28,978 bases of DNA from Chloroflexota bacterium (GTDB taxonomy: Bacteria; Chloroflexota; Ktedonobacteria; Ktedonobacterales; Ktedonobacteraceae), in assembly GCA_005879655.1 (NCBI GenBank), contig VBJK01000161.1, forward strand, positions 1 to 28,978. Reading direction: 5' to 3'. The notes under the pieces were generated by a model. It did not search any database and was not told the origin of the DNA. It worked only from the letters and a program-made list of their open reading frames with translations. Below are positions 681 through 17,251 of this stretch, piece by piece (position 1 is the stretch's first letter; every line of letters begins with the position of its first letter). The position numbers and the translations under genes were made by a program.

Positions 681-842
681 GTAGCCGCGCAATTGATTGC
701 GCCGAATATGTCGCCAATATCTATCGTAGCTGCGCAATTGATTGCGCCGAGCGTGAGGTGTATGTGGGTCCGCAGGCGCAATCAATTGCGCGGCTACCGG
801 AGATATTGGCAATGTGCTCGGCGCAATCAATTGCGCGGCTAC
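681..842. repeat. Four-copy array of a 23-bp palindromic repeat, two copies in each orientation
   Basis: The 23-bp unit GTAGCYGCGCAATTGATTGCG+CC occurs at 681-703 and 726-748 on the plus strand and inverted at 775-797 and 820-842. Spacing is 45 bp within each pair and 49 bp across the centre. Each unit has a palindromic core (GCGCAAT/ATTGCGC), and the whole array is itself an inverted repeat. The spacer at 704-725 resembles the reverse complement of the spacer at 798-819 (shared GCCAATATCT). It lies between the CcmI-like gene and the downstream secreted protein. Confidence 0.9.
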
Positions 843-864: not shown

Positions 865-1251
865 TTATTCTGCTTCATCTTTATCCTGCTCTTTGAGTTT
901 ACGCAACTGTTCCTCAATTTCAGCATCAAGTTCTTGCTCATAGCGCGCTTTCAGGGCGACGAGAGCTTTGCGCATATAACGTTCACGTAGCGAGCGATAG
1001 TCAGGCTCGGCAATATTGCCAAGCTGATAATCCAGCTCGACTTCTTGCAGAGCTGCACGAGCCTGCTGTTCTTGTTCTGTTGGTGACTTTATGGTATGCT
1101 CCTGAGCATCGTCAACCCCATCCGTCGCGTTGCCAACCCCATCTGTAGCCGCGCAATTCATTGCGCCATCAGCGGGCACATAGCGAAATAATGGATAAAG
1201 CACGAAAACCAGGGCAATCATGCCTAGCAAGACGGTAACTGCAAGAGCCAT
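865..1251 (-). CDS. CcmI-like cytochrome c biogenesis membrane protein
   Basis: A 128-residue protein with an N-terminal membrane segment (about residues 3-23), a low-complexity linker (about 26-50) and a helical, charged C-terminal part. The segment ALQEVELDYQLGNIAEPDYR (about 68-87) matches the pattern seen after the first membrane helix of CcmI proteins. CcmI helps present apocytochrome c to the heme lyase. Its start overlaps the ccmH stop by one base (TAATG), implying translational coupling. The linker contains a copy of the genome's 23-bp palindromic repeat translated as part of AMNCAATD, so a repeat appears to have inserted in frame. The protein is short and lacks the TPR domain of proteobacterial CcmI. 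Confidence 0.7.
   Translation of the reverse strand: MALAVTVLLGMIALVFVLYPLFRYVPADGAMNCAATDGVGNATDGVDDAQEHTIKSPTEQEQQARAALQEVELDYQLGNIAEPDYRSLRERYMRKALVALKARYEQELDAEIEEQLRKLKEQDKDEAE
1145..1167 (+). repeat. Single copy of the 23-bp palindromic repeat inside the CcmI-like gene
   Basis: The unit GTAGCCGCGCAATTCATTGC+GCC is the same as those in the arrays at 681-842 and 14559-14895. It falls in the hydrophilic linker of the CcmI-like protein and keeps the reading frame. Flanking sequence carries a short imperfect direct repeat (CAACCCCATCYGT). Confidence 0.85.
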
Positions 1252-2496: not shown

Positions 2497-3753
2497 CTAT
2501 TGGCAGTATGACCGCGCACAGCGCAGCCCAACGCCCATTGCTAAGAGCAGAACCACTGCAAGCGGACCAACAACCTGATTATAAAACGGGGGACCAACCG
2601 TCATCGTCTGATGCTGGAATACCGCTGTGATCAGTGGGAAGATCGTGCCCCATAACGTGGCAAAAGCGATACCAACTAGTAACAGATTATTCAGCAGAAA
2701 AACACCCTCGCGCGATACAATCGAATCGAATTCTTGCTCAGGTTTCAATGTGGGCAGACGGAAGAGAAAGAGTCCCGTGGAGAAGACGATGACGATCACC
2801 AGAAAGGTAAAGAAATAGCTACCAATGTCGGAATAAGCAAATGAGTGCACCGAACTGATCACGCCACTACGCACTTCAAAGGTACCAAAAATGGAGAGCG
2901 CGAACGAAGCAATGATCAGGCATAGGTTCCAGACCTTGAGCATGCCCCGGCGCTCCTGTACCATAGTAGAATGGAGAAACGCCGTTGCCGTCAACCAGGG
3001 CAACAGCGCCGCATTCTCCACCGGGTCCCAGCTCCAATAGCCTCCCCAGCCCAACACATGATAGGCCCACCAGCCGCCCAGCAGCAGTCCAGCCGTCATG
3101 ATCGACCAAGCTGCCAGCGTCCAGCTGCGTATCGAGCGCAGCCACTCGCTATGCAGCTGTCCGCTAATCATCGCGGCCACGGCGAATGCGAAGGGTAGCG
3201 CAAAGCTCACATATCCCATTAGTAATAGTGGTGGATGCACAAGCATACCAGGGTCCATCAATAGTGGATTGAGGCCATTGCCGTCTAATGGTGCGGTTGG
3301 CAGACGCACAAATGGATTAGAGGCATTCGTCAGGACAACCAAGAAAAACGTCTCAATCCCCATCAAAGTTGCTAAGATATACGGCACTAGTGCACGGGAA
3401 GTACGTTTGGCGGTGAACACAAAAAGTGCTGAGAACAGAGAAAGTACGAATGCCCAATAGAGCAATGACCCCTCTTGTCCACCATAAAAAGCCGCCGTAG
3501 TAAAATACCAGGGCATAGCCAAGCTAGAGTGTTGCGCAACATAGCGCACGCCAAAGTCATGTACCAGAAACGAGATGACCAGCGCAACTGAGGCCAGCAA
3601 CAAGCAGCAAGTTACCACCAGAGTACTACGTTGCGCGCTGGTTACGAGTTGTGGTAGCGCGCGCAGCGAGCCGAGTACAGCCACGACGATGGTATAAATA
3701 GCAAATCCCAATGCAAGGATGAGCGCAATATTACCTAGATCTGAAAAATACAC
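2497..3753 (-). pseudogene. ccmF: CcmF heme lyase, N-terminal part with frameshift
   Basis: A 418-residue part of the multi-pass CcmF protein, the System I cytochrome c heme lyase. Signatures are GGQEGSLLYW (91-100), MLVHPPLLLMGY (170-181) and the tryptophan-rich WWD heme-binding motif GWGGYWSWDPVENAALLPWL (235-254). The GTG start (MYFSDLGNIALILALG) matches the family N-terminus and lies inside the end of ccmE (19-base overlap). After LLLAMGVG the frame runs into an unrelated tail (LRCARSYCQ) and a stop, while the real continuation sits in the other frame. The rest of the protein is intact, which fits a very recent frameshift or a sequencing error in the GGG run rather than long decay. Confidence 0.9.
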
Positions 3754-5381: not shown

Positions 5382-5460
5382 AATGATTTGTCCTGCCTGG
5401 GATAGAACGTCAGGTAGATTATGGTGCTTGCTCCTGATGCTCAACTTGCAGCCTGGGAAC

Positions 5461-5481
5461 GTGACCTTACAATGACCTGAA
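5461..5481 (-). promoter_or_regulatory. Candidate regulatory motif upstream of the ccm operon
   Basis: Read on the minus strand this is TTCAGGTCATTGTAAGG followed by TCAC, 80-100 bases before the TlpA-like start codon. Nineteen of 21 positions recur at 12657-12677, about 100-120 bases before the start of another minus-strand gene. Function is unknown. Confidence 0.35.
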
Positions 5482-5561
5482 CGTTAGAGAAATTACAAGC
5501 AGAACACATGGAGGCAACAGCAAGAGGAGAGGAAACGACCGGTGAACGGATAGCCTGGTCC

Positions 5562-5855
5562 ACTGCTGAGCCGCCAGGGCACCCACACGGGACAATATCA
5601 TTCACATAAGGGTTCACAGGGCACCCACACGGGACAAGACCATTCACATAAGGGTTCACAGGGCACCCACACGGGACAATATCATTCACATAAGGGTTCA
5701 CAGGGCACCCACAAGGGATGCCCCTACAATGGTACGAGCGCGCATCACAGGCCAATTCGTACCATTGTAGGGGCATCCCTTGTGGCCCTGCGGCTGGACG
5801 GAGGGGCTTATTTCACCGATCTTGTCCCTTGTGGGTGCCCTGGCGGCTCAGCAGT
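5562..5855. repeat. 294-bp MITE-like repeat element with nested repeats
   Basis: The element is bounded by 34-bp inverted ends (5562-5595 and 5822-5855) that differ at one position and read ACTGCTGAGCCGCCAGGGCA inward. Inside are three 42-bp tandem repeats (5576-5617, 5618-5659, 5660-5701) plus a partial fourth, then a perfect 29-bp inverted repeat with a 19-base loop (5709-5737 and 5757-5785). No gene is credible here: the open frame across it only translates the tandem repeats (CGCPVNPYVN). No target-site duplication is obvious. The stretch between the ccm operon and the next gene holds only this element and upstream sequence of the operon. Confidence 0.8.
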
Positions 5856-10186: not shown

Positions 10187-10945
10187 ATGGCAAAAATTGA
10201 GCAGCAGCAGTTTCCCAATGCCGCATCGTATAGGAATAACCAAAATTTCCCTCCAGGTTTTGAAGATCCTGGTGATGAACAGGAGATAATTTATCCTATG
10301 GTTATTCCTGTTAACCGGACGTTCTCTGTCTACGTAGTCCTCTTGTTGGTAATTGGTGTAGCCATTGGCTATGCCTCGACGTATTTTGCAGGTGCATCTG
10401 TAGGATTATTTGATGCCAAGGTGATCAATTCAGGAGATACCGCCTGGGTTTTAACAGCATCTGCACTGGTCCTGCTGATGACGCCAGCCGTTGGCTGGTT
10501 CTATGCTGGCATGGTGACGAGCAAGAATGTTATCAGTTTGATTAAACAAACCCTGCTCATTCTGGCTGTGGTCAGCATTCAATGGGTCCTTATCGGATAT
10601 AGTCTGGCCTTTGGCAAGGATGTCAATGGGCTTGGCATCATCGGTGGGCTGAACTTCTTTGCGCTGAACGGAGTCGGCTATGCACCCAGTGCTTATGCTC
10701 CAACCATTCCCCAGACGGCCTTTATGATCTTTCAGGCAATGGGAGCCATTATCGCGCCAGCTCTAATCATTGGCTCGATTGTCGAGCGTATGCGTTTCCG
10801 TACGCTGGTGATCTTTGTGCTGTTATGGACGACGCTGGTGTATGATCCGATTGCACACTGGGTGGTGGGTGATGGTGGGGCAAGCGGGGTGGCTTCAAGG
10901 TTGGCCAGGCTATTGTCTCACACAATATTCCCCTGGTCCTGCTAG
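10187..10945 (+). pseudogene. amt: Ammonium transporter Amt, N-terminal part (internal deletion and frameshift)
   Basis: A 252-residue frame covering the first membrane helices of an Amt/MEP/Rh channel: DTAWVLTASALVLLMTPAVGWFYAGMV, later FMIFQAMGAIIAPALIIGSIVERMRF and YDPIAHWVVGDGG. It carries a long hydrophilic N-terminus (about 40 residues) and one extra hydrophobic segment. After GDGG the expected segment, which in Amt holds the LDFAGGTVVHI pore histidine, is absent. The sequence jumps to GKRGGFKVGQ in another frame (about 10879 onward), and this frame ends in an unrelated tail. About 32 residues, near 95 bases, seem deleted. The start has only a weak ribosome site (GGTGAAAGC). Confidence 0.88.
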
Positions 10946-10953
10946 GAGCTGGT

Positions 10954-11826
10954 GTGCTCTGGTTTGGCTGGCTGGGCTTTAATGGTGGGAGCGCGCTGGC
11001 GGCTTCACCGCTGGCCGTTAATGCCTTCGTTGTCACCAATACTGCCGGTGCCGCTGGTGCCTTGGTCTGGATGGTCCTGAGCTGGGCTGAGAATGGCAAG
11101 CCTAGTGCATTAGCGACCGCCATCGGTGCGGTGTGTGGTCTGATTGCTATTACTCCGGCCAGTGGCTATGTTGGTCCGGTGGCCGGTATTGCTATTGGTC
11201 TGGTTGCAGGCGTTGTCACCTATATGGCCTTACACATTCGCAGCAAACGCTTCCATATTGATGATACGCTCGATGTGTGGGCCGCTCATGGCATGGGTGG
11301 CGTGACTGGACTGATCCTGGCGGGTGTTTTTGCGGAGAAGGTGATCAATGTTGGCGGCAACAATGGTTTGCTCTTTGGCAATGCGAGCCAGTTGGGCATA
11401 CAAATCCTGACGGCCTCTGTCACCTTGGGGTATGCGTTTGTCGTGACATTTATTCTGCTCAAACTGCTTGCCCCGCTTGGCTTGCGTGTATCTCGGCAAG
11501 AGGAAGAAGAGGGCCTGGACCTCGCTGTTCATGGTGAAGAAGGGTATCAATTGGCAACGCCGCCAGAAGATACAGAGGAACGTATTGCAGAGCTGGAAGC
11601 GGGGACTGCCGCATTACGCATGCAAATGGCAGCGCAAAACAACGAGTTGCGCCAGCGCTTGCAAAACGAAACTGCCAATTTACGTCAGCGCTTGCAAATC
11701 CAAAAGGATGAGCAACGCATTGCACATCTAGAATCCGAGAACAGCGAGTTACGTCAGCGGCTGGGCACTCATAGCAACCAGCCTATCCACAGACAATTCG
11801 TTTCGCCACTGAGAAAATTGCAGTAA
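10954..11826 (+). pseudogene. amt: Ammonium transporter Amt, C-terminal part with coiled-coil tail
   Basis: This 290-residue frame begins at GTG, but Amt homology in the same frame starts earlier (GKRGGFKVGQAIVSHNIPLVLLGAG, from about 10879). It has WFGWLGFNGGSALAA, ITPASGYVGPVAG, DDTLDVWAAHGMGGVTGLILAGVF and the C-terminal LRVSRQEEEEGLDLAVHGEEGYQL, normally the site of PII contact. Past that comes an unusual extension of about 80 residues predicted to form a coiled coil, with heptad-like repeats NELRQRLQNETANLRQRLQ and SELRQRLG. It is out of frame with the N-terminal part, so a whole transporter cannot be made without repair. Confidence 0.85.
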
Positions 11827-12690: not shown

Positions 12691-14523
12691 TTATATCAAG
12701 GAAGGCGGAGCTATCTTCATGAGTTTATAGCCAACGTCGGGGACGGTGACGATATATTTGGGATGACGCGAATCTTCTTCAATCTTACGACGGAGGCGGC
12801 TGATATATACCCAGATAAAATCGACATCACGGTTGTATTCCGGCCCCCAGACCTTTTCCAGTAGCAGTTCATGTGTCACGACCATACCTGCATTCTGGGC
12901 TAAGACATTGAGCAGGTTGTATTCAGTGCGACTGAGCTGAACGGTCTTGTCCCGTACGGTGACGATATGTTGCGCGTGATCGATGATGAGATCGCCGGTA
13001 CAAAAGATAGCAGCCAGCAACTCTTTCATACCAAATGGCTTAAGCATGAGATCATCGCCGCCACAATCAAAGATCTGCGCACGTTCGTCTTCGTCGCAAT
13101 CGTCGGACAGCACGATCACAGGGATCGGCGAGAACTCGCGCAAGCGCTGCAACAATTGAATACCACTCATATCCGCCAGACGTGTCGAGAGAATAATCAA
13201 AGCTGGCTCTTCCAGGTCTAATTGACGCAAGAATTGCACCCCATGGTTGACAGTATGTACACGATACTGCTGCTCCTCCAGGTTCGCGCGTATATAGCGG
13301 GCCATACGTGGATCACTCTCTGCCAGCAAGATGCCAATGCGCCGATCTGCCTTTCGTAAGGCTGGCCGCGTCGTATTGCTTGGGATAACTTGCTGGGCAG
13401 TTGGTAATAGTGCCTTAGCAGGCGGCAACAGCGAGCTAGTCGCATGTGACGCAATAGGCAACGTAAAAGAGAAGGTTGCACCGTGTCTATGCCCTGCTGA
13501 GTCGGCCCAGATTTTTCCGCCGTGCGCCTCAACCGCTGCCCGTGCCGCTGCCAGTCCCAGACCAGTGCCGCCAACTTGCTCATCATCATCTTGCTGTATG
13601 CGATAGAAGCGGTCAAAAATGTGACTGAGATGCTCTAGCGCGATACCAATACCCTCGTCGGTAATCGCTATGCGTAGCTCACCATCGTCCGTCTCTGCCG
13701 CAATAGTAATCATTTTGCCCGCAGGTGAGTACGTCACTGCATTCTTCAGCAGGTGATTGAGCGTCTGCTCAATACGCACCACATCACATAGCACAGGCGG
13801 CAGATCGGGAGGAATACGTAGCACAAAGCGATGACTGGTTGCGAGCTTATGCCAGCGTCGAACAAGTTGTTCCAGCATTTCAGGGATATACACCTGTGTC
13901 ATACGTAGAGGTTGCGTTCCGGCATCCAAGCGCCAGACATCTAGCAGTGTATTCAGGATATCATGGAGGCGATCGGATTGGGTATCAATCATCTGCAACA
14001 TTTCCCGCTGAATTGCGGGGTCCCAACGTGCAGAACTACCCAATAGCGTCGTCGCGCAACCTTTAATAATCGCTAAGGGAGTCTTGAGTTCGTGAGCGGC
14101 TAGTGCCAGCGTCTCGCCGCGAGACTCAAGTATCGAACGCTCTAGCGTAATGTCATCGAAGAGTATACCACGTCCAAGCAGATTGCCACGGCCATCGCGT
14201 ACAGGAAAGCTATGCATACGCAACCAACGCACAGCTGCGTCAGCCAGTGCAAGATCGGTGCAATATTCCTGTTCAGGGTGTAGCCAGGCGTGATCTAATG
14301 CAGCATGAACCTGTTGTGGTTCAGCCACGATAGACAGCAAGTGCTTGCGCACATCGAAATCTTGCGCTGAAAGCACATCTGTATTACTAATACGTAGCAA
14401 GCGCTGAGCACTCGCATTTGAGTAGATCATCTGTTGCTGGTTGAGTAACAGGAAACCGCTATTCATACTCCCACATATTTCAGTAAGAACATGATATTCG
14501 TGTGTAAAACCTGCTGGAATCAT
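12691..14523 (-). CDS. Hybrid sensor histidine kinase fused to receiver and OmpR-type winged helix
   Basis: A 610-residue cytoplasmic protein with no membrane segment. Domains in order: PAS-like sensor (about 8-128), HisKA with H144 in LALAAHELKTPLAIIKG, and HATPase_c with N261 (HLLKNAVTYS), G1 DEGIGI (289-294) and G2 GGTGLGL (318-324). A Pro/Ala linker follows, then a receiver (about 395-510) and a Trans_reg_C winged helix (about 512-605: VQLSRTEYNLLNVLAQNAGMVV, VWGPEYNRDVDFIWVYISRLRRKI, VPDVGYKL). Kinase and DNA-binding regulator in one chain resemble a fused KdpD/KdpE-style pair. In the receiver the phosphoacceptor position reads LIILS446TRLADMSG, with Ser instead of Asp, while Lys495 (LMLKPF) is kept. 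It may therefore be a pseudo-receiver. The gene is followed by a receiver protein with a normal Asp. Confidence 0.93.
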   Translation of the reverse strand: MIPAGFTHEYHVLTEICGSMNSGFLLLNQQQMIYSNASAQRLLRISNTDVLSAQDFDVRKHLLSIVAEPQQVHAALDHAWLHPEQEYCTDLALADAAVRWLRMHSFPVRDGRGNLLGRGILFDDITLERSILESRGETLALAAHELKTPLAIIKGCATTLLGSSARWDPAIQREMLQMIDTQSDRLHDILNTLLDVWRLDAGTQPLRMTQVYIPEMLEQLVRRWHKLATSHRFVLRIPPDLPPVLCDVVRIEQTLNHLLKNAVTYSPAGKMITIAAETDDGELRIAITDEGIGIALEHLSHIFDRFYRIQQDDDEQVGGTGLGLAAARAAVEAHGGKIWADSAGHRHGATFSFTLPIASHATSSLLPPAKALLPTAQQVIPSNTTRPALRKADRRIGILLAESDPRMARYIRANLEEQQYRVHTVNHGVQFLRQLDLEEPALIILSTRLADMSGIQLLQRLREFSPIPVIVLSDDCDEDERAQIFDCGGDDLMLKPFGMKELLAAIFCTGDLIIDHAQHIVTVRDKTVQLSRTEYNLLNVLAQNAGMVVTHELLLEKVWGPEYNRDVDFIWVYISRLRRKIEEDSRHPKYIVTVPDVGYKLMKIAPPSLI

Positions 14524-14558
14524 TGTGAAGTACTTCTTCTATGATGAGAATTCTCTAT

Positions 14559-14895
14559 GTAGCTACGCAATTCATTGCGCCACGTGGCACCACCAAAACA
14601 CCCGTAGCTGCGCAATTTATTGCGCCAGAATACACCCCAACACAGACCGTAGCTACGCAATTCATTGCGCCACGTGGCACCACCAAGACACCCGTAGCTG
14701 CGCAATTCATTGCGCTAGAATACACCCCAACACAGACCGTAGCTACGCAATTCATTGCGCCACGTGGCACCACCAAGACACCCGTAGCTGCGCAATTTAT
14801 TGCGCCTGTTTTGTGGTATAATGCCCATGGCGCAATAAATTGCGCAACCACGGTCTGTGTTGGGCATATCCTGGCGCAATAAATTGCGCAGCTAC
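14559..14895. repeat. Eight-copy array of the 23-bp palindromic repeat at 45-bp period
   Basis: Plus-oriented units start at 14559, 14604, 14649, 14694, 14739 and 14784, exactly 45 bp apart; inverted units start at 14829 and 14873. Units vary as GTAGCTRCGCAATTYATTGC+GCC. The 22-base spacers alternate between two sequences (ACGTGGCACCACCAARACAC.. and AGAATACACCCCAACACAGA..), giving a 90-bp higher-order tandem repeat. The spacer between the inverted units resembles the complement of the second type. Open frames across this stretch on both strands merely translate the repeats. This array fills the gap between the kinase gene and the Cys-rich membrane protein. Confidence 0.92.
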
Positions 14896-14969
14896 CGGGG
14901 GATACCCCCTTGCCAATTTGGCTGTTCCTATTTTAGCAAAAAATGTCAATGAGCAACCATATCACCATG

Positions 14970-15386
14970 CTATTTTGCAATCAGCGGTAACAGCACAATC
15001 AGCACAAGGTGAAGCAGCATCGCAACAATGAAACTGCCAGCAATAAAGATGATCCAACGGCGGTCTGAGATGTATAAACGGACCCTCGTAGAGTAAGCCT
15101 GGGGCCAGCGCTCCGAGGCAACGATTCCCATCGCAATACGTATGCGCAACGGAGAACGTATGGGAGAGCGATGCATTTCTGCCAGCAGTGCTTGAAAACA
15201 TGGTTTGCACAGTGTCCAGGTGAGGCATGGTTCTGGTACACCTTCGGGTTCAGTAACACGCAACGGCGCAAACCAGATACGCCGAGTACAGATGGCACAA
15301 GTTGTAGCAGCTCGTCTTTTGCGTTTCCACCGTCCTTCACGAAGAACCGCAATGCTAGCCCTGGTTTTATGCATTGCCTCTTTCAT
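14970..15386 (-). CDS. Cys-rich (zinc-ribbon-like) membrane protein, unknown function
   Basis: A 138-residue protein from the ATG at 15386, chosen for the AAAGGA site 8 bases upstream. It has a very basic N-terminus, then CAIC (about residue 34) and TLCKPC (about 62) forming a possible four-cysteine zinc site, and a C-terminal membrane helix (about 115-137, IIFIAGSFIVAMLLHLVLIVLLPLI). The topology suggests a cytoplasmic zinc domain tethered by the C-terminus. Upstream there is a candidate promoter on the minus strand (TTCTTG, 17-base spacer, TACAAT, near 15500) and a hairpin (CCCATATA..TATATGGG, about 15412-15436). No family is recognised. Confidence 0.7.
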   Translation of the reverse strand: MKEAMHKTRASIAVLREGRWKRKRRAATTCAICTRRIWFAPLRVTEPEGVPEPCLTWTLCKPCFQALLAEMHRSPIRSPLRIRIAMGIVASERWPQAYSTRVRLYISDRRWIIFIAGSFIVAMLLHLVLIVLLPLIAK

Positions 15387-15635
15387 AAAAAATCCTTTAT
15401 GGAGGAGAAGCCCCATATACTTTCAGGCTATATGGGAGGAAACAATGGTGTTGGTAGGAAGCCCCATGTTAAACAAATTTGGTTACTTTATGATTGTAGC
15501 ACATTCTATCTAGGACAAGAAAGCCCGTCATATAAGGCAACCCCCTATAATGGGGAGATTGACCATAGTGCGCTTCTGTCTCATTGTAAGAATTTTCTTA
15601 TTGCAATGTATTGTTCTCTGCTGATTTAGAGGTAT

Positions 15636-17174: not shown

Positions 17175-17251
17175 CGGGGTGTAGCGCAGTCGGCTAGCGC
17201 GCAGCGTTCGGGACGCTGAGGTCGGAGGTTCAAGTCCTCTCACCCCGACCA
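17175..17251 (+). tRNA. tRNA-Pro (anticodon CGG)
   Basis: A full cloverleaf can be drawn: acceptor CGGGGTG/CACCCCG, D stem GCGC/GCGC, anticodon stem CAGCG/CGCTG with loop TTCGGGA, and T stem GGAGG/CCTCT with loop TTCAAGT. The anticodon CGG reads CCG (proline). The 3' CCA is encoded. The open frame antisense to it, with GLEPPTSAS, is the usual false translation of this tRNA. Confidence 0.97.

Follow-up and report, generated by a model that had tools for sequence, protein, structure and literature searches.

A probable cluster of GTAG-tagged repetitive extragenic palindromes in a Ktedonobacteria-related Chloroflexota contig

The 28,978-nucleotide stretch of contig VBJK01000161.1 (GenBank assembly GCA_005879655.1) analysed here, referred to as the window, derives from a Ktedonobacteria-related lineage of the Chloroflexota and contains two arrays and one solo copy of a short, tagged repeat. 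The window seems to comprise an entire contig. The arrays very likely represent a cluster of GTAG-tagged repetitive extragenic palindromes (REPs), similar to bacterial interspersed mosaic elements (BIMEs). The elements are ordinary in kind, being of a known REP type, and it is their layout, head-to-tail with two REPs on each arm of a nested hairpin, that is unusual. There are 13 copies of the core CGCAATNNATTGCG in the window, as against 0.04 expected from 100 dinucleotide shuffles, and they fall at three places in 29 kb (Table 1). Eight of them form array 1, with which the initial annotation was concerned, and five lie outside its coordinates, four at 681-842 (array 2) and one at 1145-1167.

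The tagged element and the layout of the two arrays

Each of the 13 cores carries a tetranucleotide tag (GTAG in 12, GTGG in one) on one side only and exactly 3 nt outside the motif CGCAAT. The stem is 7 bp long in 10 copies and 6 bp in the remaining three, and the loop is 2 nt. The repeat had been described as a palindromic 23-mer, which is correct for its inner 14-16 nt but not for the rest, as the 23-mer is oriented by its one-sided GTAG. According to the literature, GTAG-type REP elements are recognised by a GTAG foot that adjoins a short stem-loop (PMC3733652). Both characters, a tetranucleotide GTAG (or GTRG) at one foot of the palindrome and a short stem with a small loop (stems of such elements being mostly 6-9 bp), are present in the window. 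The window elements share the one-sided tag beside a short stem-loop with the GTAG REP superfamily and very likely are GTAG-type REPs. Members of this superfamily occur as singletons, dimers and clusters, also in Chloroflexi, for example GTAG-23 of T. roseum (PMC3733652). The position of the tag, 2 nt away from a short stem, agrees with the description of short-stem REPs in PMC6006769, though many of the relatives are longer-stemmed. Six literal core strings did not occur in the literature searched; we do not claim the stem as undescribed. A CRISPR array was considered and rejected, given that the spacers repeat, the orientation flips and the scanned open reading frames (ORFs), 29 of 48 in the window, include no cas family.

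Array 1 (14559-14895) consists of eight 23-mers, six direct and two inverted, and the spacings given in the initial annotation agree with ours: the direct copies follow one another in five steps of 45 bp and the inverted ones in block steps of 45 and 44 bp. The direct REPs, all six tagged with GTAG, half of them with a 7-bp stem and the other half with one of 6 bp, are separated by 22-bp spacers in the order A, B, A, B, A, and the 21-bp spacer of the inverted part is spacer B inverted (none of 5000 shuffles was equally good). The centre is weakly similar to inverted spacer A (p 0.004-0.10 depending on the spacer copy; p 0.017 in a second scoring), a weak indication that the inversion axis lies within the REP at 14784, with the centre equal to inverted spacer A. 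A period of 90 bp scores above one of 45 bp (TRF, 96% versus 77% matches). The alternation of spacers in a 90-bp unit proposed earlier is thereby upheld, whereas the spacers of the two halves, A and B, which were proposed to be related, show no detectable kinship (10 of 22 columns identical, a value reached by 25% of shuffles). Similarly, the period was said to be kept through the flip, and this is true of the block steps but not of the cores, which are spaced by five steps of 45 bp, then 40 bp at the flip and then 44 bp. The steps between cores are uneven at the flip because the 23-mer block is asymmetric, and the constant feature along the array is the spacer of 21-22 bp. The copies carry point differences among themselves.

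Array 2 shows in simpler form a plan that is common to both arrays, namely REP-22 bp-REP arms that face each other and form long hairpins by folding. It folds as one nested hairpin, and its facing spacers are related (p 0.0004 and 0.0015 in two scorings). Array 1 holds the same plan in 14604-14671 versus 14829-14895, with extra head-to-tail units in between; its spacers may be homologous to those of array 2, judging from a sequence comparison with p of about 0.007, uncorrected for 36 comparisons. The suggestion that the units can form stems is borne out by strong single-strand structure in both arrays (DNA fold, z = -12.9 for array 1 and -16.8 for array 2). In both there is a head-to-head central pair flanked by arms that pair, as in the hairpins of REPINs (REP doublets forming hairpins). 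REPINs and BIMEs likewise have inverted REP pairs with a defined spacer, and their ordered clusters arise as tandem repeats that include the flanks (PMC3116915, PMC8266576). The window differs from them in having two head-to-tail REPs per arm with a 22-bp spacer, i.e., a four-REP nested hairpin, and a 90-bp repeating unit that holds two REPs pointing the same way.

Table 1. Coordinates of the REP arrays, the solo REP and the frame read through array 1
Feature	Position	Strand	Description
Array 2, left arm	681..748	+	REPs 681-703 and 726-748; 22-bp spacer
Array 2, centre	749..774		26 bp
Array 2, right arm	775..842	-	Inverted REPs 775-797 and 820-842; 22-bp spacer, partly complementary to the left-arm spacer
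Solo REP	1145..1167	+	In CcmI-like ORF 865-1251 (minus strand), in frame, in a variable linker
ORF	14541..14882	+	Array 1 read through in frame; judged spurious
Array 1, direct part	14559..14806	+	REPs 14559-14581, 14604-14626, 14649-14671, 14694-14716, 14739-14761 and 14784-14806
Array 1, centre	14807..14828		22 bp, last direct REP to first inverted REP
Array 1, inverted part	14829..14895	-	REP 14829-14851, tag GTGG; REP 14873-14895, tag GTAG

Length variation, the solo copy and alternative explanations

Protein P0002, encoded on a metagenome contig of 1,275 bases, is a reading of this locus that is shorter by exactly 30 residues (90 bp) and has one amino-acid change in the inverted part. This substitution implies that P0002 represents at least another allele, and the copy number of the 90-bp unit appears to vary between strains. 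The contig also bears on whether array 1 could be an artefact of assembling a repetitive metagenomic contig, since repeats in tandem or inverted order pose difficulties for assembly. We regard such an artefact as very unlikely: the separate contig contains the array together with its inverted part and the changed residue, the copies of array 1 differ by point changes, and array 2 displays the same plan. The exact copy number of array 1 is nevertheless uncertain.

The shorter allele stays in frame, and array 1 is spanned by an open frame of 113 codons with 15-residue repeats (VAxQFIAP), so that a protein-coding repeat had to be considered. However, 45 and 90 are multiples of 3 and an open frame follows automatically from such periods. 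The only match among 5.8 billion proteins is this locus itself, no Pfam family scores over its cut-off (one weak match, 19.8 bits versus 27), and array 2 lacks a comparable long frame; we reject a coding repeat as exceedingly improbable. With this frame taken as spurious, 12 of the 13 REPs are intergenic and one lies within ORF 865-1251, in keeping with the mostly intergenic location of REPs.

Array 1 fills the space that separates two genes of the minus strand, one at 14970-15416 and the other, for a histidine kinase, at 12691-14523; its fold, like that of array 2, is very stable. Both features would suit a host regulatory or structural element under selection, such as a protein-binding array, an mRNA 3'-end hairpin, or a terminator or attenuator preceding the kinase gene, instead of a mobile repeat cluster. 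The region 14400-15100, however, is without a promoter-like site or an Rfam match and has a single terminator-like site, on the plus strand only, where 0.9 are expected, while the same repeat is found elsewhere in the contig, also within a gene. The period had been likened to about four helical turns, but with 10.5 bp to the turn 45 bp corresponds to 4.29 turns and so not to a whole number, and the 40-bp core step at the flip likewise speaks against helical phasing, which we discard. A regulatory element thus seems very unlikely, and any cellular role of the REP cluster, for example as an mRNA hairpin between the two genes, would be secondary.

The solo REP was examined against homologues of the CcmI-like protein, 585 of which were found at E <= 1e-10. 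Among the best 120 of these 585, filtered with nine REP-peptide strings, the REP peptide is present in the window's own protein only, and the closest homologue (75% identical) is without the solo REP and has a linker shorter by 12 residues. Another protein, P0005, is identical to the C-terminal part of the window's CcmI-like protein but differs in its start, which is unrelated and begins close to the linker; this reflects either a rearrangement or a chimeric contig.

Further features of the window include two genes that are each split over two ORFs by sequencing errors or decay: a CcmF-like gene on the minus strand (2497-3753 and 1814-2362) and an ammonium transporter on the plus strand (10187-10945 and 10954-11826). 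A second kind of tandem repeat, with a 42-bp unit in 3.4 copies at 95% matches, is located at 5575-5718 and overlaps ORF 5441-5776, and a tRNA gene is present at 17175-17248 on the plus strand.

The tagged core in other genomes and its association with REP-type transposases

Genome contigs were scanned for pairs of cores at a distance of 30-60 bp, which yielded at least 120 stretches. They come from many phyla, and the tagged core recurs in them mostly as inverted pairs. The 120 stretches among the matches listed contain 291 cores with 579 readable core sides; GTAG stands at the 3-nt offset on 211 of these sides, and the next most frequent tetranucleotide, GTGG, on 19. Of their 131 neighbouring pairs, 75 have one tag per member, and these comprise 53 head-to-head, 8 tail-to-tail and 14 head-to-tail pairs, the head-to-head ones being REPINs in the sense of PMC3116915. 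A universal 45-bp spacing was not seen, as the spacings in these outside loci spread across the allowed 30-60 bp. In viral contigs the two-core pattern matched a single stretch, in which three cores follow at intervals of about 21 bp, and the GTAGCN form was not found there.

Regular arrangements of the core also occur outside the window. A simple case of a phase kept through the flip is L043, in a genome of the same class, where tags stand at the two outer feet of a group with two untagged cores between them, all exactly 45 bp apart. Enterobacter ludwigii EnVs2, with 206 cores in its genome, has a REP, GTAGCGGCGCAATTTATTGCGC, that is one base from the window type; it is repeated every 174 bp next to a RAYT-like gene (RAYT, REP-associated tyrosine transposase; locus L227) and in 42-bp steps at another locus (L039). 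In L078, two REPs pointing the same way lie 44 bp apart, each after a near-identical 20-bp flank, which indicates tandem copying of flank plus REP. A much tighter array, of at least five cores at an exact 23-bp period, is present in G071 (contig C55, 20763-20868).

The proline dehydrogenase of the window shares no more than 70% identity with its counterparts in 47 genomes from the class to which a Ktedonobacter metagenome-assembled genome belongs. The REP family is patchy in this class; among the four core-bearing genomes, three were chosen for having the core and the fourth has a single odd copy. Neither a match to the array DNA nor an empty site for the arrays was found in the 47 genomes, in a search made without a positive control.

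The association of the core with RAYTs was assessed by running the RAYT model NF047646 over 31 host genomes, of which 26 have matches at E <= 0.001 and 12 over the curated cut-off. After removal of six loci that repeated a place and addition of nine loci by hand to the 30 selected by the tool, 39 RAYT-like loci were available. The exact core is present in seven of the 39, as against 0.68 expected from genome-wide counts, and in four of the 30 tool-selected loci, as against 0.55 expected. The transposase frame itself contains the core in L224 (where the tag is GGAG, not GTAG), L233, L251 and L257; the REPs are placed there either between the two halves matched by the model or inside them, and REP insertions within the gene have been reported for TnpA_REP subclass 2.4 (PMC6006769). 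In L227, L229 and L260 the core is beside the gene; L229 is counted here because its REPs, although within the stop-to-stop frame, fall outside the part matched by the model.

The GTAG-contact residues named for E. coli (PMC6006769) provided a loose pattern, W-Q-x4-[EDQN]-[HR]-x2-R, which was sought in frames of at least 110 codons only. It is present in 19 of the 30 RAYT-model loci and in 13 of the 14 loci of a second set (six of the 14 being the same places as RAYT-model loci), and in none of 16 loci with PF01797 hits (G001 to G003), a few of which are partial genes. The RAYT-like genes of two of the three REP-bearing Ktedonobacteria genomes (L262, L263) also have it, and in L218, from this set of three genomes, a core with one mismatch lies about 190 bp from the gene.

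A number of observations weigh against a mobile REP cluster. Head-to-tail pairs are reported to be rare in most REP families (PMC3733652), but account for eight of the 10 neighbouring REP pairs in the two window arrays. The 90-bp-shorter allele may reflect a difference between strains or a collapse in the assembly of a short-read contig of 1,275 bases, and the CcmI linker is variable in all homologues aligned, so that the insertion of the solo copy is suggestive only. Only four of the 47 class genomes contain the tagged core, and 32 of the 39 RAYT-like loci are without the exact one. Moreover, the scan of 29 of the 48 window ORFs revealed no Y1/RAYT gene; in the three REP-bearing Ktedonobacteria genomes, the exact core is beside none of the Y1_Tnp or RAYT-like loci examined. 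The last two results lead us to infer that mobilisation by a RAYT takes place in trans, and the window REPs were probably copied by such a REP-type transposase.

A plausible origin of the phased inversion

We propose a REP cluster whose unit consists of GTAG, 2 nt, a 7-bp stem (6 bp in three of the 13 copies) and a 2-nt loop, and which, when single-stranded, would be the type of substrate of TnpA_REP/RAYT (HUH-Tyr) transposases, with only one strand recognised. An inverted composite, REP-22-REP facing REP-22-REP, would have been laid down, probably through RAYT-driven copying, and array 1 would afterwards have gained or lost 90-bp units, perhaps by slippage or recombination between REPs. The initial annotation held that the phase kept through the inversion is hard to reconcile with simple tandem duplication. 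This argument is not supported, and no special mechanism need be invoked, given that an allele differs by exactly 90 bp and that palindromic cores keep register by symmetry. As the core is palindromic apart from its 2-nt loop, any two copies are at once direct and inverted repeats of each other. Whole steps would be added by slippage or by recombination among the copies, and an inversion would flip a segment with its register kept. The register presumably survives the inversion because the REP core is palindromic and the spacers measure 21-22 bp both ways. The suggestion of a defined element, in turn, is supported, in that the array is very likely a cluster of GTAG-tagged REPs and repeats a unit of 90 bp.

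The four-REP nested-hairpin plan is seen at two places in one contig, and we tentatively raise the rather doubtful possibility that what spreads in this lineage is the whole four-REP structure, each arm of which has two REPs in head-to-tail order separated by 22 bp, and not a classic two-REP REPIN. If so, the 45-bp period would be set by a transposase that acts on a pair of REPs pointing the same way at a fixed distance.

The puzzling phased inversion thus becomes predictable, since palindromic REP cores can hold register through duplication and inversion alike. The findings add a lineage related to Ktedonobacteria in which REPs are densely clustered in tandem, together with a candidate length polymorphism of 90 bp, and the recurrence of the REP core GTAG-NN-GCGCAAT-NN-ATTGCGC with its tag across many phyla makes transposase co-evolution, convergence or horizontal spread testable.
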